The translations under genes were made by a program, and so were the position numbers. Below the pieces are notes generated by a model. That model saw only the letters and a list, made by a program, of their open reading frames with translations, did no database searches and was not told where the DNA came from. A stretch of DNA of 44,447 nucleotides from Planctomycetota bacterium (GTDB lineage Bacteria > Planctomycetota > UBA1135 > GCA-002686595): NCBI GenBank assembly GCA_021730845.1, contig JAKFYL010000009.1, forward strand, positions 1 to 44,447. The letters are read 5' to 3'. Positions 3,295 through 31,319 of the stretch are shown in pieces (position 1 is the stretch's first letter; each line of letters starts with the position of its first letter).

Positions 3295-3322
3295 TCGCGC
3301 GGGGCTAGAGTTCGCCGCGCGA
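3295..3322. terminator. Bidirectional hairpin terminator between convergent genes
   Basis: A perfect 8-bp stem (TCGCGCGG at 3295-3302 and CCGCGCGA at 3315-3322) with a 12-nt loop spans the 15-bp gap between the amidohydrolase stop and the convergent aspartokinase stop, and extends into the last kinase codons. There is no clear T tract, so termination strength is inferred. Confidence 0.45.
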
Positions 3323-4108
3323 TCTGACCGGCGGCGCGAGTGCGTCCACCCGCGTCAGGCGGCCGCCGCCGGGCCGCGCAACTTCGAAGGCCACGTCATG
3401 GGCTTGGGCATAGTCCAGCGCCTTGGGCTGGATGGCGCGGCCCGCGCAGTGCCGAGCCTGGTCGAACGAGATGTGGTCCAAGTGGCATGCTCTGCCCCGG
3501 GCAGGATCGTCGTCGTAGATACCGTCGACGTCCTTGAGCAGGCGGCACACCTTGGCTTCGAGCGCACCTGCCAGCGCGATCGCCGTGAGATCCGAGCCAC
3601 CGCGGCCGAGCAGCGCCAGGCGCCCGCGTCGATCGCAGCCCACGAAACCCGGAACGACGACTGCCGGAGCGCGCGCGAGTTCGCGCAGGATCGCTGCAGG
3701 GCGCATCTTGCACGGGTCGGCGTCCAGGGCCGAGCCACGCACGACTAGGCCCATGTCCCGCGCCGTCATGGCGCGAGCACTGACTCCCTGCCGGCCCAGC
3801 GCCAAGGCAAGCAGGGCCGCGGCGCGGGCCTCCCCAAGCGCCACGAGCGTGGCCAAGGAATGTCCCAGGGCTGCCTCGCCGCCAACTTGCCGGCCGTGGG
3901 CCAAGAGAGCATCGGTTTCCCCTCGAAAGGCGGACACGACCGCGACGACGCGCGCGCCGCCCTGGGTCCAGCGGCGAATTTCAGCGGCTACGGTAGGCAG
4001 ATCGCCGGGATCTTTCAGCAGCGAGCTGCCGAACTTGAGTACGGCAATCGGGCCACTAGCGAGGTCGGAACGGGTGGAAACGGAAGTACGCGAAGATAGC
4101 GCTTGCAC
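3305..4108 (-). CDS. Aspartokinase-like amino acid kinase without ACT domains
   Basis: The protein consists of an amino acid kinase domain only. The phosphate-binding KFGSS motif sits at residues 25-29. Later it has LGRGGSDLTA and KDVDGIYDDDP, the classic aspartokinase nucleotide and aspartate site. Aspartokinases phosphorylate aspartate as the first step toward Lys, Thr and Met, and normally carry two C-terminal ACT domains that bind the feedback inhibitor (total ~400-450 aa). Here the frame stops at 267 aa, right after the catalytic domain. The start is a GTG with no obvious Shine-Dalgarno; no better in-frame start precedes KFGSS. It could be a deregulated paralog, a catalytic subunit partnered with a separate ACT protein, or a specialised kinase for another pathway. 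Neighbours do not indicate which. Confidence 0.8.
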   Translation of the reverse strand: MQALSSRTSVSTRSDLASGPIAVLKFGSSLLKDPGDLPTVAAEIRRWTQGGARVVAVVSAFRGETDALLAHGRQVGGEAALGHSLATLVALGEARAAALLALALGRQGVSARAMTARDMGLVVRGSALDADPCKMRPAAILRELARAPAVVVPGFVGCDRRGRLALLGRGGSDLTAIALAGALEAKVCRLLKDVDGIYDDDPARGRACHLDHISFDQARHCAGRAIQPKALDYAQAHDVAFEVARPGGGRLTRVDALAPPVRSRGEL

Positions 4109-4200
4109 GGCGAAAAAGGCATCGAACGGGACTGCGCGACGGGGGTTAGGACTGCCGGCGGCCCGGGCCGGCGGTCCACTTCCGAGCGCACGTTGCGCAG

Positions 4201-4308
4201 TTATTTGCGCAGAGTCGTTCGAGCGTGGAAGCCGCCGCCCGGGCCGCGTTTGGCTTTTTTCGAATCGAGCTTGTGCAAGCTCGCAGTGGGGGCGGTCAGG
4301 GCTTCCAT
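4201..4308 (-). CDS. Possible small basic peptide (35 aa)
   Basis: An ATG-initiated frame of 35 codons lies alone in the 256-bp gap between two minus-strand genes. The peptide is basic in its second half (LDSKKAKRGPGGGFHA, ending TTLRK), and third codon positions are mostly G or C as in neighbouring genes. No ribosome site is visible and I recognise no family. It may be a nucleic-acid-binding micropeptide or chance. Confidence 0.2.
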   Translation of the reverse strand: MEALTAPTASLHKLDSKKAKRGPGGGFHARTTLRK

Positions 4309-4364
4309 CGAAATGCTAGTGGGCGAATGATAGGCGGGGAGCGAACCCAAAAGCAATGCTTCTT

Positions 4365-4883
4365 TCAGCGACCCTTGCGCTTGCGGTCGCTGTGGTTGAC
4401 GCTCGTGGTGCGGGTCCATTGCCACCCTTTCTCGGTCTTGGCCAGCTCGCCGGAGATGCGCGCGTCCCACCAAGCTTGGGGCTTGTCGCCTTGCAGGCGG
4501 GAAATGTTGGCCGAGATGCTCGCTTTGGCAGTCTTGGGCTCGCCCTCGGTGACCACGACATCGAAGGGTACTTCGGGCAGATCGGCGCGCAAGGCGAACT
4601 TCTTAGACTGCTGGTCGATCTCCTGAAAGAACGTGTAGACCAGGGCTTCACGCAGTTCTTCGCGGCGCACGCCGGACTGCACATCGAGGAAGTTCTCGTC
4701 CAGGCCAGCCATGAATCGGCTCGTACGCTGCTCATTGAAGGCGTCGACCATCTCCTGGCACAGGCGGCGGATCTTGTCCTGGTCGGATTCCATGGCCCGC
4801 AGCACCGCACGCCCGCCGATCCACAGCAGGATTCCCAGTGTCAGAGCGCCGGCGACCCGGGTCTTCGTCACTTGGAACGCCAT
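4365..4883 (-). CDS. Membrane-anchored NTF2/SnoaL-like small protein
   Basis: This 172-residue protein has one N-terminal hydrophobic helix (about 11-28, VAGALTLGILLWIGG), which should act as an uncleaved anchor or signal. A ~130-residue mixed alpha/beta domain follows. It starts with a helix (KIRRLCQEMVDAFNEQ) and ends with a strand around GWQWTRTTSV. That order (helices, then curved sheet ending in a W-rich strand) resembles the NTF2/SnoaL-like fold, many members of which are small ligand-binding or accessory domains. The tail is basic (RKRKGR). It lies 28 bp downstream of the crotonase gene on the same strand and is probably cotranscribed with it. The fold is inferred from the helix/strand pattern only. 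Confidence 0.7.
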   Translation of the reverse strand: MAFQVTKTRVAGALTLGILLWIGGRAVLRAMESDQDKIRRLCQEMVDAFNEQRTSRFMAGLDENFLDVQSGVRREELREALVYTFFQEIDQQSKKFALRADLPEVPFDVVVTEGEPKTAKASISANISRLQGDKPQAWWDARISGELAKTEKGWQWTRTTSVNHSDRKRKGR

Positions 4884-4911
4884 GAGAGCGAAGAATGAGG
4901 GCCCGGCGCGC

Positions 4912-5673
4912 CTAGCGCGACTTTCCGAGGGCCTTGTTCAGGTACTCGCGGATCGAGGTGTGCGTGCCTGGGTCTTGCCACACGGCCAATACGCGCTGGC
5001 GATGTGCTTCACTTGCGCGCCAGCCGTGCAAGATGCGCGCGCGTTCTTGCTGCTTGGCCAGCGCAAAAGCCTGGCCGGGGATGCGAGCGAGCTGTTCGGC
5101 GATTTCCTGGGCGCGGCTCTGCACATCGGCGGCGGGGGTCAAGTCGTGGACCAGGCCTTTGGCGCGCGCATCGGCCCCCTCGAACTGCGTGCCCAGGAGA
5201 ACCATTTCCTGGAATACCTCCGGTCGCACGGCGACGCGCATGATTTCCAAGGCCAGCCAGGGGTAGGCCACCCCAACTTGAAGTTCCGGCACGCCGATAC
5301 GCCCATGTTCATCGCCCATGACGCGCCAATCGCAGGCGCAAGCGATGACGCACCCGCCGGCGATGGCGTGCCCGTTGATGGCGGCCACCAGCGGCTTGTT
5401 CAGCGCGAACAGCGCGGCGAGCATTTCATCGAGGGCCGACAAGAAGCGTTCGATGTACCCGGGCCCGCCGTCCAAGATGCGGCGCAAATCGACGCCGGCG
5501 GAAAAGCAACTGCCCGTTCCGGTGAGCACGGCCGCTTTGTGCGCGGAGGCTTCGATCTCCCGCGCCGCTTGCGTCAGCGCTTGGCACAGCTCCACATCCA
5601 GGGCCTGTACCTTGCCGTGCTCCATACGCAGCAGGGCCAGATCGCCGCGCGTTTGAATCGAGACGCCAGTCAT
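4912..5673 (-). CDS. Enoyl-CoA hydratase/isomerase (crotonase) family protein
   Basis: At 253 residues it has the usual length of a crotonase-fold enzyme acting on acyl-CoA thioesters. The first oxyanion-hole segment reads LTGTGSCFSAGVDL and the second NGHAIAGGCVIACACD, both diagnostic. The first catalytic-glutamate region is present (VPELQVG). The second is atypical: YPWLALE replaces the common P..GG.. pattern, so hydratase versus isomerase or hydrolase activity cannot be assigned. The ATG has no Shine-Dalgarno and lies only 15 bp downstream of the right edge of the palindromic element at 5689-5847, which separates it from hemG. Before that insertion it may have been the last gene of the heme operon transcript. 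Confidence 0.88.
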   Translation of the reverse strand: MTGVSIQTRGDLALLRMEHGKVQALDVELCQALTQAAREIEASAHKAAVLTGTGSCFSAGVDLRRILDGGPGYIERFLSALDEMLAALFALNKPLVAAINGHAIAGGCVIACACDWRVMGDEHGRIGVPELQVGVAYPWLALEIMRVAVRPEVFQEMVLLGTQFEGADARAKGLVHDLTPAADVQSRAQEIAEQLARIPGQAFALAKQQERARILHGWRASEAHRQRVLAVWQDPGTHTSIREYLNKALGKSR

Positions 5674-5688
5674 GGCGCCAAGAGCTTA

Positions 5689-5847: not shown

Positions 5848-7191
5848 TTAGCGCACCGCGTTCCCGGATCGAGCGCGATTGCGTGCGGCCGTGATCAAGG
5901 CCGGAATTCCGATGCCTCGCAAGTGGTTGCCCAGGATTTCCAGTTCCGGCGTGCCCGCTAGGGCCAGCTCCAGGGCAGCCACACGCTCCGGATGCTGCAA
6001 GTCGTAGCGCGGCATGACCGCGCCCCAGTTCGAGTGCCAAACGCTGAGCGGCTCGCCCGTGATCGAAAGCAGCGGCGCGACCTCGGAAAGCACGATCTCG
6101 AGCAATTCGGCCTTCGAAGCTCGGCCCAGATCCGGCCGCCTTGCGCCTCCCGACAGCGTGCGCAGCACCACCGTGTCCGCTGGCGAACTGGCGGGGTCGA
6201 TGCTGCTGGAAAACAGGGTTCCTAGGTGCCGAAGGCCCTGCTTGTGGGGCACCAAGTATCCAAAGCCGTCGAGGGCGTGTCCTATTTGGTCGCGTTTCCA
6301 AACGCTGACTAGGCCCGCCAAAGTCTCGTGCTGCAAAGGAAACGCAGCGAGCGCCCGCGCGACTTGGGGCAGGGTCGGCTCGACGAGGGGCAAAAGCGCC
6401 CGGTGGGGAGTCGCCAGGACCAGTTTGTTGCACTCGAAGCGCTCGTTGTCGGTTGCCACGACGAACCCGGTCGCACTGCGCTCCAGCGCGCGAACCGGCG
6501 TAGACAGCCGCAGCCTGTTTCCCAATTGCCTTGCGAGTGCATCGGGCAGGCGCTGCATGCCTGCGACCGGGCGCTGTATCGCGGGGGCGCGCGAGTTCTT
6601 GGGCACGCTTGCTTCCTGGGCCGCACGCGCCTTCATGGCGGCGAAGACGCTGCCATGCCGCTGGATCATGTCCGGCAGCTCGGCAAAGCACGCACGCAGA
6701 GAAAGCTGGCCGGGGTCACCGGCATGGATGCCGCTCACGAATGCGTCCACGAAGGTGTCCAAGACTTCGTTGCCGAAGCGGTGCGCGGCAAAGTCCGCGA
6801 TCGAACCGTCCAGGGCCTTGTCCGCCGCGCGGGTCGGCTCCATGAGCACCCGCGCCTTGCCCAGTGCAGAAAGGACCTGTGTACCGGCCAGATCACTCGG
6901 GCTACTTGGGACTTCGTGCAGTTGGCCGCGGTGGGCGAGGAAGCGCTTGGAAACTGGAACCCCGTGGCACCGGATCCGCGCGAGTTCCATCAATTCGCCC
7001 ACGGCCGGGGTGGAACCTTGCAGCGACTCGGGACCGTCTTCGAAGCGCAGCGCACCTTGTTCGATGGTGCGAATCAAGCCGCCGGCGCGCGGCGAGCTTT
7101 CGAGCACGAGCACATTGGCCTGTGGTCCCGCGAAGGCTGCGTACGCCAAGCCCGAGATCCCAGCGCCTACGACCAGCGTGTCGACGTGCAT
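5848..7191 (-). CDS. hemG: Protoporphyrinogen oxidase, FAD-dependent HemY type
   Basis: This enzyme oxidises protoporphyrinogen IX to protoporphyrin IX, the penultimate step of the protoporphyrin-dependent heme route. The 447-residue product begins with a dinucleotide-binding motif (VVGAGISGLAYA, residues 8-19), then an FAD-contacting LESSPRAGGLIRT segment. It ends with a second FAD strand region (LGNHLRGIGIPALI), as in flavin-dependent oxidases of the amine-oxidase superfamily. The frame is open further upstream, but the start is placed at ATG 7191 because the GxGxxG motif then falls at its usual N-terminal position. It begins 7 bp after the hemN stop. The stop codon TAA coincides with the target duplication of the adjacent insertion element, so the native C-terminus may have been altered by the insertion. 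Confidence 0.92.
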   Translation of the reverse strand: MHVDTLVVGAGISGLAYAAFAGPQANVLVLESSPRAGGLIRTIEQGALRFEDGPESLQGSTPAVGELMELARIRCHGVPVSKRFLAHRGQLHEVPSSPSDLAGTQVLSALGKARVLMEPTRAADKALDGSIADFAAHRFGNEVLDTFVDAFVSGIHAGDPGQLSLRACFAELPDMIQRHGSVFAAMKARAAQEASVPKNSRAPAIQRPVAGMQRLPDALARQLGNRLRLSTPVRALERSATGFVVATDNERFECNKLVLATPHRALLPLVEPTLPQVARALAAFPLQHETLAGLVSVWKRDQIGHALDGFGYLVPHKQGLRHLGTLFSSSIDPASSPADTVVLRTLSGGARRPDLGRASKAELLEIVLSEVAPLLSITGEPLSVWHSNWGAVMPRYDLQHPERVAALELALAGTPELEILGNHLRGIGIPALITAARNRARSGNAVR

Positions 7192-7198
7192 GGCGCTC

Positions 7199-8593
7199 TC
7201 ACACCGTTTGGCTGAATGTCCCGGCGCGCGCCTGACGCGCTTGCAGGTACTCATCGAAGCACATGGCAATCGGGCGCAGGAAAAGGCGACCCAGGGGAGT
7301 GACCACGGCGCGCCGCGCTGTGAGCTCCACCAGTCCGTCGGCGGCCAAGGGCCGCAAGCGCTCCCATTCCGCGGCAAAGTGGCTGCCCAAGTCGTGCCGC
7401 CCTGTGCGTAGTTCGAGCTCATCCAGGTCCAGGCGCATGCGGCACATCAAGTCCAGGATCGCAGCGCGGCGCAAGTTGTCCTCCGGCGTGCGCTGCAATC
7501 CGCGGTGAGCGGCCAAGCCTCCGGATCGGATGCGTTGCTCGTAGTCGCGCGTGGTGGGCTCGTTTTGGAAGAAGCAGCCGTCGATCTCGGAAATCGCGCT
7601 CATGCCCAGGGCCAACATGTCCTCGCAAGGGTGCGTGGCGTAGCCCATGAAATTGCGGTGCAATCTGTCTTCGCGCAGGGCCTGGTGCAGGGTGTCGCTG
7701 CGCAGGGCGAAGTGGTCCAAACCCACGACTTCATATCCCGCTTGACCCAGGCGCTCGAGTGCCTGGCAAAACAAACGCGTGCGCAGCGCGGGATCGGGCA
7801 GGGCTTGCGACTCCAGGGCCTTTTGAAACGGCTTCAACCACGGAACGTGGGCGTACCCATACAGCGCCAAGCGGTCGGGTTTCCACTGCGCCACGTGATC
7901 CAGGGTCGCGGCGAAGGTGGCTTCATTTTGGCGCGGCAACCCGTACATCAAGTCGACGTTCACGCCGCCGAAGCCCAGCTGCCGGCAGTGTTCGATCAGC
8001 GCCTGGGTTTCCTCGGCCGTCTGGTGGCGAGCTACGGCGGCCTGCACGCCGGGATCGGTGTCCTGCACGCCCATGCTGACTCGGTTGAACCCCAGGTCGG
8101 CCAAAGTCTCGATCTGTTCCTTGCGCGTGACGTGCGGATGCACTTCGAGCGAGAGCTCGGCCCCGGGTAAGAGCTGGAACTCGCGCGCCAGTGCACCGAA
8201 CAGGCGCCGAATTTGCTGGCTCGAAAGATGCGTAGGCGTGCCTCCGCCCCAGTGCATTTGCGCCACGCTGCGCCGCGCGCCGAGCAGGCCCGCCGCGCGT
8301 TCGATTTCCAGCTCGAGCGCCTCCAGATAATGCTCGACCAGGTCGGCGCGGCGTGTGATCTGCACCGTGCACCCGCAGTACAGGCACAAGCTCTCGCAGA
8401 AGGGAATATGGACGTACAGCGACAGCGGTTCGCTCGCCCGACGCGAGGCGCGTTCGAGTGCGGCGCGCTGCTCGGCCTCGCCAAAAGCGGTCGTCCACTC
8501 CGGCACGGTTGGGTACGAGGTGTACCGCGGACCCTGGCCGCCCCAGCGCTCGAGCAGGCGCGGATCGAAAGCAACAGGTCCGGCCGCTTTCAT
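7199..8593 (-). CDS. hemN: Oxygen-independent coproporphyrinogen III oxidase (radical SAM)
   Basis: HemN decarboxylates two propionate side chains of coproporphyrinogen III to vinyl groups using S-adenosylmethionine radical chemistry, without oxygen. The 464-residue protein shows the iron-sulfur motif CESLCLYC (C66, C70, C73), preceded by YVHIPF, then C75 and a GGGTPTHLS SAM-binding loop. The N-terminal RYTSYPTVPEW segment is typical of true HemN and is absent from HemW-like heme chaperones, which supports the hemN call. The ATG start overlaps the hemE stop as ATGA, indicating translational coupling. Having only the anaerobic enzyme here suggests heme synthesis that works at low oxygen; an aerobic HemF could exist elsewhere. 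Confidence 0.95.
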   Translation of the reverse strand: MKAAGPVAFDPRLLERWGGQGPRYTSYPTVPEWTTAFGEAEQRAALERASRRASEPLSLYVHIPFCESLCLYCGCTVQITRRADLVEHYLEALELEIERAAGLLGARRSVAQMHWGGGTPTHLSSQQIRRLFGALAREFQLLPGAELSLEVHPHVTRKEQIETLADLGFNRVSMGVQDTDPGVQAAVARHQTAEETQALIEHCRQLGFGGVNVDLMYGLPRQNEATFAATLDHVAQWKPDRLALYGYAHVPWLKPFQKALESQALPDPALRTRLFCQALERLGQAGYEVVGLDHFALRSDTLHQALREDRLHRNFMGYATHPCEDMLALGMSAISEIDGCFFQNEPTTRDYEQRIRSGGLAAHRGLQRTPEDNLRRAAILDLMCRMRLDLDELELRTGRHDLGSHFAAEWERLRPLAADGLVELTARRAVVTPLGRLFLRPIAMCFDEYLQARQARAGTFSQTV

Positions 8594-9621
8594 CGCCGCC
8601 GCTCCTGTGCGGCGCGTACAAAGGCGCCGACGCACTCCGGATTGGTTTCCTTGAGCACACCATGGCCAAGGTTGAGCACGTGGCCGGGCCGGTCTTCCAC
8701 GGTGGCAAGCAGAGTCTGTGTCTTGGCGAATACGCTTTCCGGCGTACCCAACAGCAAGGATGGATCGAAATTGCCTTGTAGCGCGACGCGCTGTTTGGTG
8801 CGCTCGAAAGCTGCCGGCAAGTCCGTGCGGTGATCGAGCGCCAAGCCCTCGATGGGCAGCTCGGCCAAGTCTTCCACCAAGTGATCGGCGTGACCTGCGA
8901 AGGCGATGACCGGCACTTTGCCGCGTACGCTTCCCAGCGCGGCGCGGCTCCAAGGCGCAGCCGAGCGCAGATACTCGTCGCGGCCTAGTTGGCTGGCCCA
9001 AGTGTCGAACAGCACCACCACTTCGGCCCCACAGTTGACTTGATACTCCAAGTGCCGCGCCACCATCTCCGCGAGTTTGTCCAGCAGCGCGTGATAGGTG
9101 CTCTCGCTGCGCAGCATCAGCGTGCGCAAATTGGCGAAGGACTTGCTCGTTCCGCCTTCGATGGCGTAACTGGCCAAGGTAAACGGAGCGCCGCAAAAGC
9201 CGATCAACGTCTTGTCCGCGGGCAAGCCGGCTGCCACCAAGCGCAAGGCATCGCCCACGAACTGCATGGACTCGCGTGGATCCGTCAGGCGCAGTGCGTC
9301 GACGTCGGCGCGCGTGCGAATCGGCTGGGGCAATTGCGGGCCGTGCTCGTCGAAGATCAGGCGCATGCCCATGGCCTCCAACGGCACCAGGATGTCGCTG
9401 AATAGGATGGCTGCATCCATTCCAAAGCGTCGCACCGGTTGCAGCGTGACTTCCGCGGCCAGTTCGGGCGCGCGGATCATCTCCAGAAAGCCCCCTGCCT
9501 GGCCGCGCACCGCGCGGTACTCGGGCAGGTAACGTCCCGCTTGGCGCATGAGCCAAACGGGGGTGCGTTCGGTCGCTTCACGCCGCAGGGCTCGGATCAG
9601 CAGTTTGGATTCGGTTCGCAT
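8590..9621 (-). CDS. hemE: Uroporphyrinogen decarboxylase
   Basis: HemE converts uroporphyrinogen III to coproporphyrinogen III by removing four carboxyl groups; it is cytosolic and cofactor-free. The 343-residue length is normal. The N-terminal signature PVWLMRQAGRYLPEYR spans residues 21-36 with its substrate-binding arginines, and the catalytic-type aspartate is D76 in AILFSDIL. The second family signature appears as GFCGAPFTLASYAIEGG, and the late FNLGHG-like segment reads LNLGHGVLKET. It follows the response-regulator gene by 24 bp and overlaps hemN by 4 bp, so it belongs to the same transcript. Confidence 0.96.
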   Translation of the reverse strand: MRTESKLLIRALRREATERTPVWLMRQAGRYLPEYRAVRGQAGGFLEMIRAPELAAEVTLQPVRRFGMDAAILFSDILVPLEAMGMRLIFDEHGPQLPQPIRTRADVDALRLTDPRESMQFVGDALRLVAAGLPADKTLIGFCGAPFTLASYAIEGGTSKSFANLRTLMLRSESTYHALLDKLAEMVARHLEYQVNCGAEVVVLFDTWASQLGRDEYLRSAAPWSRAALGSVRGKVPVIAFAGHADHLVEDLAELPIEGLALDHRTDLPAAFERTKQRVALQGNFDPSLLLGTPESVFAKTQTLLATVEDRPGHVLNLGHGVLKETNPECVGAFVRAAQERRR

Positions 9622-9645: not shown

Positions 9646-10341
9646 CTAAGGCGTCAGGCGGTACCCCGTCCCGCGCACGGTATGGATGTAGCGCGGATTC
9701 TGCGGATCGTCCTCGATCATGCGCCGCAATCGCACGATGAAATTGTCGATAGTGCGCGTCGTGGGAAACGCGTCATAGCCCCAAACGCGGTCGAGGATTT
9801 CCGAGCGCGAAACGACCTCGCCCGGGCGCTCGGCGAGCGCGCGCAAGATCAGCGTTTCCTTGGGCGAGAGTTCCGTGGACGTGCCTTGGCGCGAGACTTG
9901 GAACGTCTTGAAGTCCACGACGCAGTCGCCCAGCTTCAAGCGATCCCCGGCCGGGTGGGGGCTTTGCATCCAGCGCGTGCGCTTGAGAATGGCCCGCACA
10001 CGCAGTACGAGTTCGCGCAATTCGAAGGGCTTGGCCAAGAAGTCGTCGCCACCCAGCTCCAGCCCGCGCACACGATCGTCCGGTGCGCCGCGCGCGGTCA
10101 AGAACAGGATTGGAACTTGGTCTTGTTCGGCCCGCAGACGTGCGCACACGGCGAAACCATCCAGGCCAGGCAGCATCACGTCCAGGAGCACTAGATCCGG
10201 TCGCCACTGACGAACCTGTTCCAAAGCTTCGTTGCCATCGGCGCATGTGCGCACCTCGTAGCCTTCCAATGCCAAGTTGTCGCACACCACTTCCGCAATG
10301 TGGGCTTCGTCTTCGACCACCAGTAGTTTTTCGCCGCTCAT
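9646..10341 (-). CDS. OmpR/PhoB-family response regulator in the heme operon
   Basis: This is a 231-residue DNA-binding response regulator. The receiver domain (1-120) has the acidic pair E10/D11, the phospho-acceptor D54 in LLDVMLPG, T82 and K104 (AKPFELREL). The C-terminal winged helix (about 130-231) carries the OmpR-family sequence LSPKETLILRAL and ends with the recognition wing YIHTVRGTGYRL. Its ATG overlaps the end of the histidine kinase gene by 4 bp, so the pair is translationally coupled. It lies between hemL and hemE in an otherwise purely biosynthetic operon, which suggests that it controls this operon or responds to its product. Binding sites were not identified. Confidence 0.95.
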   Translation of the reverse strand: MSGEKLLVVEDEAHIAEVVCDNLALEGYEVRTCADGNEALEQVRQWRPDLVLLDVMLPGLDGFAVCARLRAEQDQVPILFLTARGAPDDRVRGLELGGDDFLAKPFELRELVLRVRAILKRTRWMQSPHPAGDRLKLGDCVVDFKTFQVSRQGTSTELSPKETLILRALAERPGEVVSRSEILDRVWGYDAFPTTRTIDNFIVRLRRMIEDDPQNPRYIHTVRGTGYRLTP

Positions 10342-11345
10342 GCTCGGTCGCCTTCTCGCGTAGCTGCCGCACCATCGGCCAATGGCAAGCGTAGATCCAC
10401 TTCGAGCCCGCCCCCGCTCGCCGCCGGTGCTTCGCGCGCCGTCACGCGGCCGCGATGTGCCTTGGCCAACTCGGAAACGAAGTACAGCCCGAGACCCGAG
10501 CCCGGTTGGTCACTCACAAGTTTCTCGCCGCCGCGCACAAAGGGCTCGAACAGCGCTCGGGGGTCTTGGCCGCGCAATCCAGGTCCGCGGTCGCGCACTT
10601 TCAAGAACGCGTCCCGGCCCAGGCAGCCAACGGAGATGTCGACTCGGCTCGACGCGCCGCCATACTTGTGCGCATTCGACAACAGATTGCGCAGCACCGT
10701 CTCGATCGAGCGCGGATCCGCGCGCACCGGCAGCGGGCCGCGCAAGTCCAACTGGATCGCGAGCGTGGCCACAGCGGGATCGCTTTGTACGTTTTGTACT
10801 CCGCGCTCGACCAAGTGGGCCAAGTCGTGCTCTTCGAGGGTTAGCTGGGGCGAGACGCTTTGCATGCGGGCCGTGAGCAGCATCTCGTCGACGAGTCGGT
10901 GCAAGCGCTCGAGATCTTCGCGTGCGTGGGCCAAGTAGCGCTCGCGCTTGTCCGGTTCGACGCGCCCTTGGTGCAAGCTCTCCAGGTACAACTTGGCCGA
11001 CGCGATCGGGCTCTTGAGTTCGTGCGTGAAGGCCGAAAGCATGTTCTTCTGGGAGGATTGCAGCGCGATCTCGCGATGCAACGAGCGCAGCACCAAGACC
11101 ACGCTGGCCGCCAGCAACAAGCCCAAGAAGGCACCTTCGAAAGCAAACATGCGCATCGAATCATCGGTGGCCTCGGTCAGGGCCCGCGATTGGGCCGGCG
11201 TTAGTTCGGCCCCCAAGCGCTGCATGCGGCCCAGCAATATCTCATCCTGACGCGAGAAGAACACGATCCACCAGGCGATTACCAGTGCATACAGCACGGT
11301 CACCGCCATGTACGTATAGAGCTTGCGTCGAGGCCCCCTGACCAT
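10338..11345 (-). CDS. Membrane sensor histidine kinase in the heme operon
   Basis: The 335-residue kinase has two transmembrane helices (about 12-30 and 68-88) enclosing an extracytoplasmic loop of only ~37 residues, too small for a conventional ligand-binding sensor. The dimerisation/phosphotransfer helix holds H108 in SAFTHELKSP. The ATPase domain shows N224 (LLSNAHKYGG), the DRGPGL loop (252-257) and the GSGLGLYF lid (282-289). Its ATG lies 1 bp after the hemL stop, and its 3' end overlaps the response regulator start by 4 bp. The minimal loop suggests sensing within the membrane or via a partner; heme or porphyrin sensing is an inference from location only. Confidence 0.94.
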   Translation of the reverse strand: MVRGPRRKLYTYMAVTVLYALVIAWWIVFFSRQDEILLGRMQRLGAELTPAQSRALTEATDDSMRMFAFEGAFLGLLLAASVVLVLRSLHREIALQSSQKNMLSAFTHELKSPIASAKLYLESLHQGRVEPDKRERYLAHAREDLERLHRLVDEMLLTARMQSVSPQLTLEEHDLAHLVERGVQNVQSDPAVATLAIQLDLRGPLPVRADPRSIETVLRNLLSNAHKYGGASSRVDISVGCLGRDAFLKVRDRGPGLRGQDPRALFEPFVRGGEKLVSDQPGSGLGLYFVSELAKAHRGRVTAREAPAASGGGLEVDLRLPLADGAAATREGDRA

Positions 11346-11346
11346 C

Positions 11347-12654
11347 TCAGGACCTCGCCGTTTGGACCTGGTGCACCTGTGCCAACGCGTTACCCATGGC
11401 TGCCACGCAGGCGTCGATGCTCGCTTCGTCGTGGGCCGTGGACACGAACGCGACCTCCCACGCCGACGGTGCCATCCAGCAACCGTGCGCGAGCAGTTCC
11501 GGATGCAGGCGCGCGTACATCGCGGCCCCGCGCTTGTCGACTTGCTGCCAGGCCCGCGGCGCAGGTCCGGGTTGCAAGCAGATCCAAAGGATCGAACCCT
11601 GCCGCACTACGTTCGCGCACACGCCGCGCACGGCGAAAGCCGTTTTCCAGCCGGATTCCAAACGCGCGGCCAAACTCTCCAGCCGCGCGTAGACTCCCGG
11701 CGCGCTCAGTTCGCGCAAGGTGGCTAGTCCGGCGGCCATGGCCAGCGGGTTCCCCGAGAGTGTGCCGGCTTGGTACACAGGACCCAGTGGCGCGACACAG
11801 CGCATGATTTCGGCGCGAGCTAGGTAGGCGCCCACGGGCATGCCGCCCCCGATGATTTTGCCCAGAGTCACGATGTCGGGCTGGATTGAGTACAGCTCGC
11901 ACGCGCCGCCTGGAGCCACTCGCAATCCGCTGATGACCTCGTCGAAGAGCAGCAACGCGCCGTGGCGCTCTGTCACCGCGCGCACATGGCGCAGGAATTC
12001 AGGCCGCTGCAACAAGAGTCCGGAGTTGGCGGGCACCGGTTCCATCACCACGGCTGCGATTTCGCTGCCGCGCCGCGCGAACAAGTCATCCAGCGCCTGT
12101 TCGTCGTCCAAAGGCAAGACTTCCGTGAGCTCCGCCACGCAGGCCGGAACACCGGCCGAAGACGGTTGCGCTCCATTGCCGATGGTGGCCAGCCCCGAGC
12201 CGGCGTGCACCAGGAGCGCATCGGCGTGGCCGTGGTAGCAACCATCGAATTTGACGATGCGCTGTCGGCCCGTGAATCCGCGCGCCAGGCGCACGGCGCT
12301 CATGACGGCCTCGGTCCCGGTGGACACGAAACGCAGCTGATCGGCGCACGGAAAGCGGGCCAAGAGAGCCTCGGCCAGTTCGACTTCATCGGGACAGGTT
12401 GCGCCAAACGTCAAACCGCGGCTGGCCGCGCCCACGACCGCATCGATGACTGCCGGATGGGTGTGGCCGAGAATCAACGGACCCCAGGAGCCGACCAAGT
12501 CCACGTAGCCGCGACCGGTCGTGTCCCAGATGCGCGCGCCGCGACCGCGAGCGACGAAGGGCGGATCGCCTTCCACGGAACCAAAAGCGCGCACGGGTGA
12601 GCTGACGCCACCGGGCATTGCGGCACGCGCGCGCTCGAGCAGTGATTTGTTCAC
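11347..12654 (-). CDS. hemL: Glutamate-1-semialdehyde 2,1-aminomutase
   Basis: HemL is a PLP enzyme that moves the amino group of glutamate-1-semialdehyde to give 5-aminolevulinate, the second step of the C5 route. It shows the PLP phosphate site STGTEAVMSA, D238 in LLFDEVISG, and the Schiff-base lysine K266 in LGKIIGGG. A frame reading ATG at 12660 exists, but the Shine-Dalgarno AAGGAGG (12661-12667) touches that ATG. The GTG at 12654 is 6 nt away, overlaps the hemB stop as GTGA like the other junctions here, and places NKSLLERA at the family N-terminus. The product is then 435 aa. It follows hemB directly and precedes the histidine kinase by 1 bp. Confidence 0.95.
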   Translation of the reverse strand: MNKSLLERARAAMPGGVSSPVRAFGSVEGDPPFVARGRGARIWDTTGRGYVDLVGSWGPLILGHTHPAVIDAVVGAASRGLTFGATCPDEVELAEALLARFPCADQLRFVSTGTEAVMSAVRLARGFTGRQRIVKFDGCYHGHADALLVHAGSGLATIGNGAQPSSAGVPACVAELTEVLPLDDEQALDDLFARRGSEIAAVVMEPVPANSGLLLQRPEFLRHVRAVTERHGALLLFDEVISGLRVAPGGACELYSIQPDIVTLGKIIGGGMPVGAYLARAEIMRCVAPLGPVYQAGTLSGNPLAMAAGLATLRELSAPGVYARLESLAARLESGWKTAFAVRGVCANVVRQGSILWICLQPGPAPRAWQQVDKRGAAMYARLHPELLAHGCWMAPSAWEVAFVSTAHDEASIDACVAAMGNALAQVHQVQTARS

Positions 12655-13619
12655 AACCATCCTCCTTGGAGTGCTTCTCGTGCGTGGTAGCTGATGATCC
12701 AATCGGCTCCGGCGCGCCGAATCGAGTGCAGGATCTCGCGCACCACGGCCCGCTCGTCGATCCAACCGCGTTCGGCCGAGGCCTTGACCATGCTGTACTC
12801 GCCCGAGACGTTGTACGCCGCGACAGGCACCAATGCGCGTTCTTTGATGGAACGCAGGACGTCCAAATAGGCCAGGGCCGGTTTCACCATCAGCATGTCG
12901 GCGCCCTCATCCACGTCCAGCAGGCTTTCGCGCAGGGCCTCGCGGGCGTTGCGGTGGTCGAGCTGGTACGAGCGCCGATCGCCTTGCTGGGGCGCGGAGT
13001 GCGCCGCTTCGCGGAATGGCCCGTAGAACGCGGAAGCGAATTTGGTCGAGTAGGAAAGCAGCGCACGGTCGCTGTAGCCGGCAGCGTCCAGGCCCGTGCG
13101 CAGCGCGGCCACGCGTCCATCCATCATGTCGCTGGGCGCGATCACGTCGGCGCCGGCCTTGGCATAGGCCACCGCCGCGGCGCTCAACAGGGGCAGGGTT
13201 TCGTCATTGAGCACTTGGGATCCGCGCACCAGCCCGCAGTGTCCGTGGTCGGTGTAGCCGCACAGGCACACATCGGTGACGATCGTCACGCGTTCTCCCA
13301 AGCGCTCGCGTATGGCGCGCACGGCGCGCACTACGGGGCCGTGCTCGTCGGCCGCTTGAGATCCGCGCGCATCCTTGCTGTCCGCCAATCCGAACAGCAG
13401 CACCGTGCGCAACCCCAGTTCGAGATCGCGCTCGATCCGCTCGACCAAGGGCCGAATGCCGACGCGCTCGATACCCGGCATGGAAGCGATGGGTTCGCGG
13501 CCCGTGTCCGCGTTCAACACGAAGTGCGGCTGCACCAATTGGGCCGCGCTCAGTTGCGTTTCGGCCAAGGATTCGCGCAGCAAGCTCGTGCGCCGCAGGC
13601 GCCGCGGTCGAATGTTCAT
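12651..13619 (-). CDS. hemB: Delta-aminolevulinic acid dehydratase (porphobilinogen synthase)
   Basis: HemB condenses two 5-aminolevulinate molecules into porphobilinogen. The 322-residue protein has both active-site lysines: K193 in YSTKFASAFYGPFREA and K246 in MLMVKPALAYLD. The cysteine cluster DVCLCGYTDHGHCG (C118, C120, C128) marks the zinc-dependent class. The open frame extends further upstream, but ATG 13619 is chosen because it overlaps the hemC-hemD stop as ATGA and gives a normal N-terminus. The 3' end overlaps hemL by 4 bp as GTGA. Alternating ATGA/GTGA overlaps through this operon imply coupled translation. Confidence 0.95.
   Translation of the reverse strand: MNIRPRRLRRTSLLRESLAETQLSAAQLVQPHFVLNADTGREPIASMPGIERVGIRPLVERIERDLELGLRTVLLFGLADSKDARGSQAADEHGPVVRAVRAIRERLGERVTIVTDVCLCGYTDHGHCGLVRGSQVLNDETLPLLSAAAVAYAKAGADVIAPSDMMDGRVAALRTGLDAAGYSDRALLSYSTKFASAFYGPFREAAHSAPQQGDRRSYQLDHRNAREALRESLLDVDEGADMLMVKPALAYLDVLRSIKERALVPVAAYNVSGEYSMVKASAERGWIDERAVVREILHSIRRAGADWIISYHAREALQGGWL
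12661..12667 (-). promoter_or_regulatory. Ribosome binding site deciding the hemL GTG start
   Basis: The minus strand reads AAGGAGG here, a near-perfect anti-16S match, inside the last codons of hemB. It is immediately adjacent to an ATG (too close) and 6 nt from the GTG at 12654 (optimal), so it supports the GTG. Confidence 0.6.
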
Positions 13620-15280
13620 CGGATGCGCTCCAGGGGTTGCAAGCGGCGCGAAAGGTGGCGCAAGAGCGCCTCGATCAAGTCCTCGCCGGCTCCTTCGTTG
13701 GCCCACGCGATGGTGCTCGCCGCCAGTCCCGCTTGGCTCAACGCGGCGGCCGTGGCCGGGCCCAGCGGAACGCGTTCGGTTGCGGATTGGGCGTGATCGT
13801 CTCGCGAGCGCTCCCACGCCGAAGCCGCCGCCACGGCCGAGGGACTGGTGTACACCCGCACGTCGATGTCGCGGCCGAGTTCGACCTGGCCGCGGGGCAC
13901 TGCGCGGTACATTTCACAGCGCACGACTTCGTGACCGCGTTCGCGGAACTCCTGTTCCAAGTCGTCGCGCGCGTCCACCGCGCAGGGGAACAGCACGCGC
14001 GCCCCGTGGTCCAAGCGCACCGACTGGGCCAGCGCTCGCGCGCCGGAAGCGCCGACGACATCGGGCGCTAGTCCGCGTTCCATCAGGGCCATGGCAGTGG
14101 ACTTGCCCACGGCAGCTAGCTTGACGCCGCGCGGCAACGCGCAGTCACCTAGCAGCGTGGCAGCAAAGCGGCTGGTCACCGCGACCCAATCTCCGGCGCG
14201 CAGCCGACCTACGTTTCCGGCCCAAGCTGGCGCGGGAACGCGCTCGAATTCCAGCACGGGTTCGAGTTTCACGGCGGCGCCCAGCATTTCCAAGCGTGCT
14301 GCGAGAGTGCTGCACTCCTGTCCCGAGCCAGCTAGCGCGACGCGCAATCCGGCTAGCGGTCCATAGCTCTTTCCGCCGCCGGAAGTGAGCGCCTGCCAGG
14401 CCAGATCGATGGCCTGCTGCGGGGAACTTGCGTCGGCGCGCAGCCAGCGCGATGGCGCCTTGGCGCTCAAACAACCCGCTCCCAGGAACACATGCGCGGC
14501 AAAGCCCTGAGGGCTCGCTTCGATCGCGGCACCCAAGGGCAAGTTGCATCCGCCCCCGGCGCGCGTGAGCAGCGCGCGCTCGGCCGCGACGGACACCTCG
14601 GCCGCTTCGTCGTGCAGGATGTCGCGCACCAGTGTGATCAGCGCCTGGTCTCCTTCGCGTGCTTGCAGTGCCAGCGCGCCTTGGGCCGGAGCCGGAACGA
14701 ACCAAGCCTGCGGCAAGCGGAACACGGCCAAGTCCCGCAAGTCCAGTTGCAGGCGCTCCAGGCCGGCTTCGGCGAGCAAGATCGCTTCGTATCGTCCTTC
14801 GCGCAGTCGCTGCACGCGCGTGGGCACGTTGCCGCGCAGATCCAGGAGCTGCAAATCGGGTCGCAGCGCGCGCACTTGCGCCGTGCGGCGCGGCGCGCTG
14901 GTTCCCACGCGCGCGCCAAAGGCCAGCGGCAGGAATGCGCCCTGGGCATTCAGGGCCGACTCGCGCACGAGCAAGCGCTCGGCCGAGCTCGCGCGCGCTG
15001 GAATCGCAGCAATGCACAGGCCCGCTGGAGACTGGGTGGGCAAGTCCTTGTGGCTGTGGACCGCCAGGTCGATGGAACCAGCGAGCAAAGCGCCCTCGAT
15101 CTCGGCCGTGAAGAAGGCCTTGCCTTCGACTTGTGTCAGCGGGACATCGTCGATCATGTCGCCGCGCGTCTTCAAGATCACGAGTTCGCACGTGTGCCCG
15201 CTAGCTTCTAGCGCACGCGCCACGAAACGGGCCTGCCACAGGGCTAGGTCGGAACCACGGGTGCCGATGCGAATGTTCAC
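13616..15280 (-). CDS. hemC/hemD: HemC-HemD fusion: hydroxymethylbilane synthase + uroporphyrinogen-III synthase
   Basis: The 554-residue protein joins two consecutive enzymes. Residues 1 to ~305 are porphobilinogen deaminase, which assembles the linear tetrapyrrole: RIGTRGSDLALWQ at the N-terminus, HSHKDLPT (catalytic Asp), the GTSAPRR segment, and the dipyrromethane-cofactor cysteine C245 in GGGCNLPLG. Residues ~310-554 are a HemD domain, which cyclises it with ring-D inversion. It starts PLAGLRVALAG and has VAVTSRFAA and VYTSPSAVAAA, the weakly conserved hallmarks of that fold. There is no stop or frameshift between the halves. Fusion would let unstable hydroxymethylbilane pass directly between sites. 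The GTG start at 15280 overlaps the hemA stop (GTGA). Confidence 0.93.
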   Translation of the reverse strand: MNIRIGTRGSDLALWQARFVARALEASGHTCELVILKTRGDMIDDVPLTQVEGKAFFTAEIEGALLAGSIDLAVHSHKDLPTQSPAGLCIAAIPARASSAERLLVRESALNAQGAFLPLAFGARVGTSAPRRTAQVRALRPDLQLLDLRGNVPTRVQRLREGRYEAILLAEAGLERLQLDLRDLAVFRLPQAWFVPAPAQGALALQAREGDQALITLVRDILHDEAAEVSVAAERALLTRAGGGCNLPLGAAIEASPQGFAAHVFLGAGCLSAKAPSRWLRADASSPQQAIDLAWQALTSGGGKSYGPLAGLRVALAGSGQECSTLAARLEMLGAAVKLEPVLEFERVPAPAWAGNVGRLRAGDWVAVTSRFAATLLGDCALPRGVKLAAVGKSTAMALMERGLAPDVVGASGARALAQSVRLDHGARVLFPCAVDARDDLEQEFRERGHEVVRCEMYRAVPRGQVELGRDIDVRVYTSPSAVAAASAWERSRDDHAQSATERVPLGPATAAALSQAGLAASTIAWANEGAGEDLIEALLRHLSRRLQPLERIR

Positions 15281-16572
15281 GACTTCGATCCTCGGGAAGT
15301 GTCGACCGCAGGTGAGCGCGGCAAAGCGGCATCCTGGGCCGCAAGCGTGCTGCGGCCGGCCTTGGCGAATTCCTTGACGGCTGCGATCGAAACGTGGGCG
15401 ATGCGGCCAAGCGCGCTGCGCGCCCAGCGTTCGATGAACTCGCGCTCGGGTTCGCCGGTCGTAGTGGGCAGATGTTTGTGCAGTAGCTCCAATTCGCGCT
15501 CGAGCGCGCGCGTGCTTTCTGCGTGCACCGTTTCCAAGGCAGCTACAAGGCCCACGTCCGAATGCTGCCCAGCCCACTGATCCACGTGCTCGTGGACGAT
15601 GCGCGCGGCGCACTCCGCAGCACGCTCGCGCGCTTCGCGATTGAGCGCAGCCAAGTGGCGCAAGCCTTCCAAGTCGATCACCGTGACCCGCTCGTCGGCG
15701 CAGGCTGCTACGTTGCGCGGCATGGACACGTCGACCACCAGGAGTCCCGATCCGAGCGGGGTCCGCCGCGCGGCGCGCTCCAAGAAATCAACGCGCAGGA
15801 TGGGCTCCTGGGCCGACGTGGCGCACAAAATGGCGTCGACGGGCGCATGTCCCTGCAAGAATTCTTCCAAGTCCAGCGCGCGCGCCTGGCATTCCTGCGC
15901 CAACTCGCGGGCGCTGGCCAGGCGTCGATTCACGACGTACGCAACCGCCAAATCGTGCGCCGGCAGGCTGTGCAAGAAGGCGCGTGCCATCTCGCCGGTC
16001 CCCAGGACGGCAATGAGCGGGGATCGACCCGCGAAGCGTTGGGCCAGCGCCATGGCCGCCAGGCTCACCACGCTGACCGATCCGTGGGCAATCGAGGTCT
16101 TGCGCCGCACTTCGCGTCCGCAGCGCACGGCTTGCTGGAACAACGGCGCAAGCAAGGGGCCGACCAGGCCCTGTTCGCGAGCCTGCTCGAAGGCTTGGCG
16201 AACCTGGGTCTGGATTTGGGACTCGCCGAGCACCAGTGAATCCAGCGAAGCGATCACTTCGAATAGACGCTGGGCCACATCGGCGCCACTGGTCCAAGCC
16301 AGGCTTTCGGTCAGCGGGTCGCCTTCACGTAGACCGAGCGCGCGGCACAACAAAGTCCGGTCCGTGGCCGCCGGCCAGTCGCCCGCTTCGCGTGCGTAGG
16401 CGAATTCCAAACGATTGCAGGTAGAAATCACAACCAGTTCGGAGGCTGCCAACTCGTCGGCTAGCGAGCGCGCGGCGGCGCTCCCGCCAGCGCTCAAAGC
16501 GATCTTGGCGCGTTCCAGCTGATCCGCGCTGCAACGGGACAAGCTCCAACCGGTCCAGGCGATGCGTTCCAT
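15277..16572 (-). CDS. hemA: Glutamyl-tRNA reductase
   Basis: HemA reduces glutamyl-tRNA(Glu) to glutamate-1-semialdehyde with NADPH, the committed step of the C5 pathway. The catalytic STCNR motif falls at residues 50-54 when translation starts at ATG 16572, the family's usual position; an ATG 36 nt upstream would shift it. Other hallmarks are LVLGESQIQTQVRQAF, the NADPH-binding VLGTGEMARAF, and a C-terminal helical dimerisation domain (about 300-400). It is the first gene of the minus-strand heme operon, so its 5' region probably carries the main promoter. In many bacteria HemA is regulated by heme; no regulatory motif was recognised in its N-terminus. Confidence 0.95.
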   Translation of the reverse strand: MERIAWTGWSLSRCSADQLERAKIALSAGGSAAARSLADELAASELVVISTCNRLEFAYAREAGDWPAATDRTLLCRALGLREGDPLTESLAWTSGADVAQRLFEVIASLDSLVLGESQIQTQVRQAFEQAREQGLVGPLLAPLFQQAVRCGREVRRKTSIAHGSVSVVSLAAMALAQRFAGRSPLIAVLGTGEMARAFLHSLPAHDLAVAYVVNRRLASARELAQECQARALDLEEFLQGHAPVDAILCATSAQEPILRVDFLERAARRTPLGSGLLVVDVSMPRNVAACADERVTVIDLEGLRHLAALNREARERAAECAARIVHEHVDQWAGQHSDVGLVAALETVHAESTRALERELELLHKHLPTTTGEPEREFIERWARSALGRIAHVSIAAVKEFAKAGRSTLAAQDAALPRSPAVDTSRGSKS

Positions 16573-16680
16573 GCAAACCCCGCTAGCTCTATCGGCTGAC
16601 AGCAGCATTCGAGTGTCACAGGTGCGTCATGGCCAGCAAAATGGTCCCGCGACTGGTCCAGGAGGCTAGATTTCTCGTCC
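16573..16680. promoter_or_regulatory. Divergent hemA/hemH promoter region
   Basis: This 108-bp gap separates the divergent starts of hemA (16572, minus) and hemH (16681, plus), so it must hold promoters for both the long operon and the ferrochelatase gene, unless hemH uses a distant one. An AGGAGG (16660-16665) precedes hemH, but 15 nt from the ATG, which is longer than ideal. I see no convincing operator palindrome by eye. Confidence 0.55.
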
Positions 16681-17685
16681 ATGAAAGGCCTCAAGGAATC
16701 CATCCAGCAAGCTCCAGTGGGGGTGCTGCTGGTCAATCTGGGTTCGCCTGCCGAACCTACACCGAGCGCCGTCGAGGCGTTCTTGGAAGAGTTCCTGAGC
16801 GACCCGCTGGTGGTGGACTGGCCGCGTTGGCTCTGGCAACCGATCCGGCGCACGTTCATTCTGCCGCGGCGCAGCAAGACCGTCGCGCATCTGTACGCCG
16901 AGATTTGGACCTCAGGGGGTTCGCCGATCACCGCGTACACGGCGCGGCAGGCCAAGATGCTCAGCGGCGTGCTCGGCCTGCCTTGGCGCGTACAATGGGC
17001 CATGCGCTACGGCCAGCCCAGCATTGCTCTGGGACTGGAAGACCTCGTGCGCAAAGGCTGCGAACGCATCGTGGTCTTGCCGCTGTTTCCGCAGAGTTCG
17101 CGCACGACTACGGGTACGGTGTTGCTGGAGGCCACGAGCGCAGCGGCGCGCATGAATCCCGTGCCGCAACTCTTGCCGGTGAATGCCTATCCGGCGCATC
17201 CGGCGTTCGTGATGGCCTGGGTCGAGCGCATCCAAGAGACACTGGCTCGCGCCAACTCACCTGCGCCGCATGTCGTGTTCAGCTTTCATGGCTTGCCCGA
17301 GCGCTACATTCGACGCGGCGATCCCTATCGCGATCACTGCGAAGCCACCGCCAAAGCCATCGGCCAGGGCCTGCATCTGCGACCCGGAGGCTGGACCATG
17401 GCCTACCAGTCCAAGTTCGGTCCCGAGCGCTGGCTCGGACCTTCGACTGTCGATGTCGTCGCGCGGCTGGCCAGGACGCAACCCTCGCTCGTGGTCGCTG
17501 CGCCGGCCTTCGTGTCCGATTGCCTGGAGACGCTCGAGGAGCTCGGCGCGCGCTTGCGCCAGACTTTCGTGGCCAATGGGGGGCAAGAGTTCCTGTTGGT
17601 GCCGTGCCTGAACGACTTTCCAACCTGGATTGCGGCGCTGGCGGAGCTGGTCTTGGAGGCCAGTCCGCCCAAGGCCGTTCGCTAG
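16681..17685 (+). CDS. hemH: Ferrochelatase
   Basis: HemH inserts ferrous iron into protoporphyrin IX, ending the protoporphyrin-dependent pathway. The 334-residue protein has LLVNLGSPAEP near the N-terminus, the active-site histidine H203 in FSFHGLPERYI, the YQSKFGPERWLGPST porphyrin-contact segment and a late SDCLETLEELG with the conserved glutamates. The common PQYSAATTG segment is PQSSRTTTG here, a mild divergence. It is divergent from the heme operon and shares its short upstream region with hemA, which supports co-regulation. A much longer plus-strand frame overlaps this gene out of phase, but it is non-coding here. Confidence 0.95.
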   Translation: MKGLKESIQQAPVGVLLVNLGSPAEPTPSAVEAFLEEFLSDPLVVDWPRWLWQPIRRTFILPRRSKTVAHLYAEIWTSGGSPITAYTARQAKMLSGVLGLPWRVQWAMRYGQPSIALGLEDLVRKGCERIVVLPLFPQSSRTTTGTVLLEATSAAARMNPVPQLLPVNAYPAHPAFVMAWVERIQETLARANSPAPHVVFSFHGLPERYIRRGDPYRDHCEATAKAIGQGLHLRPGGWTMAYQSKFGPERWLGPSTVDVVARLARTQPSLVVAAPAFVSDCLETLEELGARLRQTFVANGGQEFLLVPCLNDFPTWIAALAELVLEASPPKAVR

Positions 17686-27040: not shown

Positions 27041-28233
27041 CCCCCGCCGGGCAAGAGCAGCACCAGTTCGCGTGTGGGGCCGCTGACACCCAGGCGCAGC
27101 AGGGTTGGAGGGCTGTCCTTGCGTTGCATTCTCACGCGCCAGTTGCCTACGGGCAAGCGTGCTTCAAAAGCTCCCGCTGCGTCCGTCCGCGTCGAATACC
27201 ACACGTCCAACTCAGGTTCGCGGATGAACTCGAGCGCGACGTCCGCCAGGCCTTCGTCCTGTGCATCGATTGCGACCCCGGCGACCTCGACCGCCTTGGG
27301 CGCGCGTTCGATCACCAAGTCGACCAGGGCCGGTAGCTCGTTTTCGGCCACCAAGGTCAGCTCGAGCCAACCGTCGCGATCCGGATCTAGTCGTACCAGT
27401 GTCGAACCCTGTTGACGCAGGCCCGCGGCCGGGCCCAACTGCAACGTCGCGCCTCCATACATGGACCGCGAGCCGCGCCCGCCCATCATCTCCATGCCCC
27501 TGGACGTCATCCCAGCGCTTCCCATCATGTCCGACCCGGCGCTTGCCAGCTGGAACTCGCGTTCGCGCTGGCTGCTGCGGTCCTTTCTAGCCTCCTCGCG
27601 CGTGGGCTCGACGCGCACGACCAGATCCTCGCCGGCGCGCACCGGCAGGCGCAGGCGTGGACCGGCGCGGTTGGCATCGACCCAGGTGTGCACGCGTTCG
27701 CGTGTACCGATGTCGGCACCTGGATCGACTCCTGGTTCGCCATCTTGCAAGGACTCCGGCGTGACGTAGCTCGAATGGCGCACCAGGTGAAAGCGGAAGT
27801 ACGCCTCGGTGGGTACGAGCTCGAGCGCATAGCGGCCGTCGCTTGGGGCTTCGAACGCCAGCAGTGCATGAAGCTCCACGCCGCCGGAGGCGTCGGTGGT
27901 GGCCAGCACTCGGCCCTGGGCGTCGACCACGCGCAGGTTCACGGCGCATTTCCAGCCGCGTGCAAAGCCCATGGCCGAGAGCTCAAACAGCGAGAGCTCA
28001 CCTTGCTTGGCATCGAAGGCGTAGCTCGCGCGTTGGCCGTCGGCCGTGAAGCGCTCGGACAAGACGCCGTCGCGCGCGAGCTCGGCTGCGGGCGGCGACA
28101 CGTGCGGCTCGGCGCGCTCCATGTTCGGCATGGTCGGCAGTGGGACTCCGGCGGGGCGCGCGTCGAGACCGCGCCCGTCCTGGTTCCAATGACCGAGGAC
28201 AACCAATAGAAGCGAGGGGATCAATCGGTTCAT
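27037..28233 (-). CDS. Exported PPC-like / carboxypeptidase-regulatory-like protein
   Basis: The 398-residue product, started at ATG 28233 because this overlaps the DUF1501 stop by ATGA, has a signal peptide (MNRLIPSLLLVVLGHW). Residues ~55-150 resemble a bacterial pre-peptidase C-terminal (PPC) domain: AFDAKQGELSLFEL, LRVVDAQGRVLATTD, GRYALELVPTEAYF. A Met/Gly-rich linker follows (SDMMGSAGMTSRGMEMMGG). The C-terminal ~90 residues are a carboxypeptidase-regulatory-like module (VAGVAIDAQDEGLADVALEF, then RTDAAGAFEARLPVGNWRV). It is the last gene of a three-gene operon with DUF1800 and DUF1501 proteins, so it may act with them at the cell surface. Confidence 0.75.
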   Translation of the reverse strand: MNRLIPSLLLVVLGHWNQDGRGLDARPAGVPLPTMPNMERAEPHVSPPAAELARDGVLSERFTADGQRASYAFDAKQGELSLFELSAMGFARGWKCAVNLRVVDAQGRVLATTDASGGVELHALLAFEAPSDGRYALELVPTEAYFRFHLVRHSSYVTPESLQDGEPGVDPGADIGTRERVHTWVDANRAGPRLRLPVRAGEDLVVRVEPTREEARKDRSSQREREFQLASAGSDMMGSAGMTSRGMEMMGGRGSRSMYGGATLQLGPAAGLRQQGSTLVRLDPDRDGWLELTLVAENELPALVDLVIERAPKAVEVAGVAIDAQDEGLADVALEFIREPELDVWYSTRTDAAGAFEARLPVGNWRVRMQRKDSPPTLLRLGVSGPTRELVLLLPGGG

Positions 28234-30892: not shown

Positions 30893-31319
30893 GGTTCGTT
30901 CCTGATAGCGTCCCTGGTTAAGCAACTTAGGTGAAGTATTTTCGTCGGCCAGCGGCCCAAGGTGTAAGAAGCGAGTCTTCCAAATGGCTTGCTAGGGCTT
31001 TCCCCCAGAGCCACCATCCAGGCTTGCAACGTTGGGCCAGGTTGTGGTCCTACGCTGGTAAGTCCTCTGCCTTTTAGATTGGGGCCCGCCCAGCGTCACG
31101 CCCATTCCAAGAATTTCAGTGCCTGGATTGCGTTGCCGACTAGGGCTGGTCAAGTTGGGGCAGGCACGCAAGCCAGCTAGTTTCCGGCAAGACTGCCCAA
31201 GTAGTACCGGTGCAGGCGGCCGAAGCGGAACAGCGGCAAGCTCCCGAACTCGCTCTTGGACTCGCCATTTTGGCATTGCCATCTGGGACCGATGGAGTGC
31301 GTTGTGGGAGGAGTCCAAG
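30893..31319. other. Intergenic region between divergent operons
   Basis: This 427-bp gap separates DUF1800 (minus) and the 306-aa gene (plus). It should carry promoters in both directions. I find no convincing small gene, long palindrome or repeat; composition drops slightly in GC around 30920-30990. Confidence 0.4.

Follow-up and report, generated by a model that had tools for sequence, protein, structure and literature searches.

The window, as we call the whole 44,447-nucleotide stretch of planctomycete DNA analysed here, encodes a sensor histidine kinase (HK) and a response regulator (RR) that form a real, conserved pair functionally linked to the surrounding heme operon and of a kind already known from Leptospira. 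Very probably, the two proteins constitute a HemKR-type two-component activator of the operon that provides feedback on heme synthesis.

The kinase–regulator pair is embedded in a heme biosynthesis operon

Pfam and NCBIfam assignments place hemA-hemCD-hemB-hemL-HK-RR-hemE-hemN-hemG head-to-tail on the minus strand and show hemH diverging from them:

16681..17685, plus strand: hemH, ferrochelatase, divergent (TIGR00109 over cut-off)
15277..16572, minus strand: hemA, glutamyl-tRNA reductase, first gene of the operon (TIGR01035 over cut-off)
13616..15280 (start approximate), minus strand: hemCD fusion, hydroxymethylbilane synthase plus uroporphyrinogen-III synthase (Pfam Porphobil_deam and HEM4)
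12651..13619, minus strand: hemB, porphobilinogen synthase (NF006762 over cut-off)
11347..12660, minus strand: hemL, glutamate-1-semialdehyde aminomutase (NF000818 over cut-off, TIGR00713 slightly under)
10338..11345, minus strand: HK, HemK-type sensor histidine kinase, 335 aa (Pfam HisKA and HATPase_c)
9646..10341, minus strand: RR, HemR-type response regulator of the OmpR/PhoB family, 231 aa (Pfam Response_reg and Trans_reg_C; member of a clade with 99/99 support)
8590..9621, minus strand: hemE, uroporphyrinogen decarboxylase (TIGR01464 over cut-off)
7199..8593, minus strand: hemN, oxygen-independent coproporphyrinogen III oxidase (TIGR00538 over cut-off)
5848..7191, minus strand: hemG/hemY-type protoporphyrinogen oxidase (TIGR00562 over cut-off)

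The genes are tightly packed. A single base separates the hemL stop codon (11349-11347) from the HK ATG at 11345, HK and RR overlap by 4 bp (ATGA), the hemE ATG (9621) follows 24 bp after the RR stop codon, and the hemN ATG overlaps the stop codon of hemE. An earlier sequence-only reading of the window had given the same coordinates and the same three junctions around the pair, all of which were confirmed from the sequence, and had placed HK-RR and the hem genes on one transcript, for which co-transcription is indeed plausible. Below hemG on the same strand, positions 3305-5673 encode an enoyl-CoA hydratase/isomerase, a small unknown protein and an amino acid kinase (Pfam). Two adjoining minus-strand genes at 28230-30925 were judged by eye to resemble a DUF1501/DUF1800 pair, a combination common in planctomycetes.

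The pair resembles HemKR of Leptospira

The heme-responsive systems HssRS, HrrSA and ChrSA govern the export or breakdown of heme and are not known to be encoded within a heme synthesis operon. The sequence-only reading generalized from heme kinases encoded apart from the enzymes and implied that the present arrangement was new; however, Leptospira interrogans has provided a precedent since 2008, with the kinase and regulator genes separating hemL from hemE in the order hemACDBL-hklep-rrlep-ENYH (PMC2266917). Hklep/Rrlep are now named HemKR (PMC11426443). Mutants of L. biflexa require hemin or 5-aminolevulinic acid for growth (PMC2266917). HemR recognizes the hem-box TGACA-N6-TGACA, its phosphorylated form activates hemA and represses hmuO, and 5-aminolevulinic acid shuts off HemKR via the phosphatase activity of HemK (PMC11426443), an activity for which the Thr four residues after the phospho-His (T102) is needed. 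The same two-component system was also stated, as data not shown, to be linked to heme biosynthesis genes in Bdellovibrio bacteriovorus (PMC2266917), and our literature search found a HemKR-like system in no further group.

Compared through published descriptions, the window pair and Leptospira HemKR (LB014/LB015) agree in several respects. Both pairs lie between hemL and hemE within the same hem gene order (that of L. interrogans), both kinases have two transmembrane (TM) segments, a short outer loop (~32 residues in HemK) and no other sensor domain, and both regulators are of the OmpR/PhoB type with a hem-box before hemA. In L. biflexa, the pair (LB014/LB015) is located away from the hem genes, as it is in part of the window's order. 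The two systems differ in the residue at phospho-His+4 (Ser in the window, Thr in Leptospira), in one mismatch in the window's box and in their hosts, the window deriving from a different, uncultured group. A search of a plasmid collection returned no Leptospira sequence among the best matches, and the PDB matches listed were all general kinases and regulators.

In a regulator tree comprising members of the window's order, a metagenome-assembled genome (MAG) recorded as “uncultured proteobacterium” (locus L036) and paralogues, with families f47 and f54 left out, L036 and the order members form one HemR clade with 99/99 support, although L036 sits on a long branch and its exact position is unsure. 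The window RR scores 206.7 bits against the NCBIfam PhoB model, below the cut-off of 296.2. PhoRB/PhoB-type systems share the regulator superfamily and a similar class of direct-repeat operator, yet the PhoB-type paralogues tested fall outside the HemR clade and, unlike the window pair, lack a Glu 38 residues before the phospho-His.

Invariant sensor residues of the kinase lie in its membrane part

Hydropathy analysis of HK reveals two hydrophobic segments, at about residues 9-32 (TM1) and 64-90 (TM2), that enclose an outer loop of ~35-40 residues, and a domain scan found neither HAMP nor PAS nor any further sensor domain. The phospho-His is H108 in the motif HELKSP. In an AlphaFold model of HK with a mean pLDDT of 88, TM2 runs unbroken into the predicted dimerisation helix carrying H108. 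An alignment of 24 HK orthologues, including that of L036, shows only two invariant residues outside the catalytic part, W26 in TM1 and E70 at the beginning of TM2. This Glu is found 38 residues before the phospho-His in every orthologue inspected and is absent from that position in the paralogues inspected, whereas the phospho-His+4 residue varies, being Ser in the window's clade and Thr in several distant orthologues. The sequence-only reading had described an outer loop of ~37 residues, which agrees with our topology, and had suggested a membrane-embedded signal, which is plausible since both invariant sensor residues, the TM1 Trp and the Glu that opens TM2, belong to the membrane segments. 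We propose that the membrane part containing W26 and E70 is the likely site at which HK reads its signal. The loop swap made in Leptospira (residues 31-62) was scored by growth only, a readout of the kinase-on state, and is therefore compatible with a sensor in this part.

A hem-box precedes hemA in the window and other hem operons that contain the pair

The published HemR site, TGACA-N6-TGACA, was used to search the window. It has one site with at most one mismatch:

16614..16629, minus strand: hem-box-like site TGACGCACCTGTGACA, one mismatch to TGACA-N6-TGACA, 42 bp upstream of the hemA start codon

The site falls in the intergenic region common to hemH and hemA, within positions 16573-16680, the very region singled out by the sequence-only reading as a place where RR might bind, and it strongly supports the pathway-controlling circuit proposed there. 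Downstream of the box, the window's own -10 element is not a clear match. Elsewhere in the window's genome, exact TGACA-N6-TGACA sites number only two, on contig C10 at 8874-8889 and 11659-11674 (L157:2875-2890 and 5660-5675). Both flank a paralogous HK-RR pair, and exact sites also occur near its counterparts in four relatives (G025, G004, G037 and G033); they possibly represent cross-talk or a motif common to PhoB-type regulators. We discarded the view of the hemA box as a single member of a large regulon, as sites with at most one mismatch number 40 in the window's genome, hardly more than the 32 of a reversed-pattern control; this view is also opposed by the relatives, which have just 1-5 exact sites per genome (across 12 genomes, 29 exact sites versus 5 for the reversed pattern). 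G124, G190 and G034 have no exact box other than the one at hemA, and in most heme-making genomes the hem operon is the only recurring box target apart from a paralogous kinase gene.

Across genomes, a hem-box lies before the first gene of the operon, on the same strand, in 25/25 fetched loci with HK-RR beside hemL, and is exact in 20. These loci include six from outside the window's order and L036, the MAG filed under Proteobacteria. The comparison set consisted of 18 loci with at least 1.2 kb of sequence after hemL and no pair there; a box was found in three, whose genomes (G055, G056 and G058) carry HemR elsewhere. When HemR was called by profile score, at a visible gap between values of at least 297 and at most 286 bits, the box was present in 23/24 heme-making genomes with HemR versus 2/22 without it (Fisher 1e-9, shared descent ignored). 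The single exception among the 24 is G060, whose hemA box has two mismatches, and the two HemR-negative genomes with a box, G027 and G042, are drafts. The Fisher value overstates the association because the association follows shared descent: on the hemA tree, HemR changes four times and the box twice, and the tree offers only four independent pairs, of which one agrees, none disagrees and three are uninformative. The association is clustered by phylogeny, and the independent pairs do not suffice to prove it. Conservation of the box itself is evidence apart from this kinship-affected statistic, the box being still exact where hemA proteins fall to about 30-40% identity and the flanking DNA differs. 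A -10-like TANNNT element lies 19-21 nt after the end of the box in 17/32 promoters (shuffled mean 1.5), and a direct repeat so close to -35 agrees with a PhoB-type regulator acting as an activator, the role reported in Leptospira.

Distribution, relocation and retention of the pair

The gene order hemL-HK-RR-hemE, which the sequence-only reading had proposed to seek in relatives, recurs in many genera and several families, so the neighbourhood is not due to chance. Within the window's order, several families have the operon together with the pair. Of 144 genomes drawn evenly from the phylum, 12 gave HemR-grade scores (at least 325 bits): six belong to the window's order, five to family f47 (all that were drawn from it) and one to f54. 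Each of the six from outside the order carries both the operon and an exact box. In L036 the genes run hemE-hemA-hemC-hemL-HK-RR-hemF-hemH, a different order, and an exact box stands 52 bp before hemE, the first gene of its operon. Relatives in the same family (f1; for example G001, G002, G006, G016 and G029) possess a hemA-hemCD-hemL cluster with neither HemR nor box; therefore, control of heme synthesis must differ there.

The pair is located elsewhere in the genome in two clades nested among operon-borne ones. We considered and rejected unrelated paralogy for the HemR-like pairs located outside the operon, as these fall inside the HemR clade and have the same membrane signature. Heme-making genomes with a relocated pair (G055, G056, G058 and G060) have kept the hemA box, which is degenerate in G060. 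Occurrence of the pair in relatives without heme genes, regarded by the sequence-only reading as evidence against a dedicated heme circuit, was partly observed: seven genomes (G040, G041, G045, G048, G051, G052 and G053) keep a HemR-clade pair and yielded no match to hemA or hemE. Since the seven lie in two clades nested among operon-borne ones, pathway loss and rewiring fit better than an original non-heme role. In three of the seven, the pair follows a homologous gene for an exported protein of ~370 aa that heads an operon:

L043:10528-11625, minus strand: exported-protein gene, heading an operon with a HemKR-like pair
L044:8149-9258, plus strand: exported-protein gene, heading an operon with a HemKR-like pair
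L052:11890-13008, minus strand: exported-protein gene, heading an operon with a HemKR-like pair

The two copies scanned (L044 and L052) matched no Pfam family. All three genes are preceded, at 34-66 bp, by a hem-box with at most one mismatch, so the DNA preference of the regulator seems kept and its target changed.

A model for feedback control and its alternatives

In the model that we favour, HK would phosphorylate RR by default. Phospho-RR would then occupy the hem-box (16614-16629), some 20 bp before the presumed -10 region, and activate hemA and hence the whole operon, HK-RR genes included. A rise of a pathway product, which in Leptospira is 5-aminolevulinic acid or a derivative, would act through the membrane part of HK to switch the kinase to a phosphatase; RR would then be dephosphorylated and the operon turned down. 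The direction of regulation and the nature of the signal are carried over by analogy with Leptospira. Counting against the model are the mismatch in the window's box, the indistinct -10 element, the Ser at phospho-His+4, the box in G027 and G042 where no HemR was found, and the seven genomes that retain the pair although no hemA or hemE match was obtained from them.

It is possible, though on balance unlikely, that heme synthesis is one output among others of a pair that does control the hem operon but responds to respiration, to quinone redox or to the state of the membrane rather than to a metabolite of the heme pathway. Such a role would suit the location of the conserved sensor residues in the membrane rather than in a ligand domain, the retention of a pair with the same membrane signature in the seven genomes without detectable hemA/hemE, and the boxed exported-protein genes ahead of the pair in L043, L044 and L052. 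However, the hem operon is the one target that recurs in most heme-making genomes, the paralogous kinase gene aside, and in Leptospira it is 5-aminolevulinic acid that turns HemKR off through the HemK phosphatase (PMC11426443).

Two further readings would detach the pair from heme control. Were the hemA box to belong to a PhoB-like paralogue, the pair would be an operon passenger with another target; the two exact sites beside the paralogous pair on C10 and the similar sites by its counterparts in G025, G004, G037 and G033 point this way, and the E. coli Pho box, in reverse complement, also fits TGACA-N6-TGACA. We nonetheless hold this to be quite improbable, since the hemA box tracks HemR and not the paralogue: where HemR is missing, other PhoB-like regulators are present but hemA has no box, the box was kept in G055, G056 and G058 after the pair had moved out of the operon, and it was for Leptospira HemR that this motif was measured. 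Gene order could also reflect descent only, with the pair trapped in the operon and without any regulatory link to heme, as operon orders are heritable and most carriers of the pair come from one order. The same placement recurs, however, in two families outside the order, in L036 with its different gene order and in Leptospira, and a conserved operator stands at the first promoter in every case, which makes inheritance alone extremely unlikely.

Returning to the HemKR-type activator, a broader and rather speculative proposal is that the module of kinase, regulator and hem-box has spread over distant phyla, reads a membrane-borne signal via the TM1 Trp and the TM2-start Glu, and has been kept and rewired to an exported protein where heme synthesis was lost; such retention and rewiring in heme-less lineages would suggest a signal that is not simply a heme intermediate. 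Our analysis extends a circuit described experimentally only in Leptospira, operator included, to a large uncultured group, and the comparative data set of pair, box, relocation and heme loss goes beyond what Leptospira alone offers. In this setting, W26 and E70 are candidates for the sensing step of HemK.
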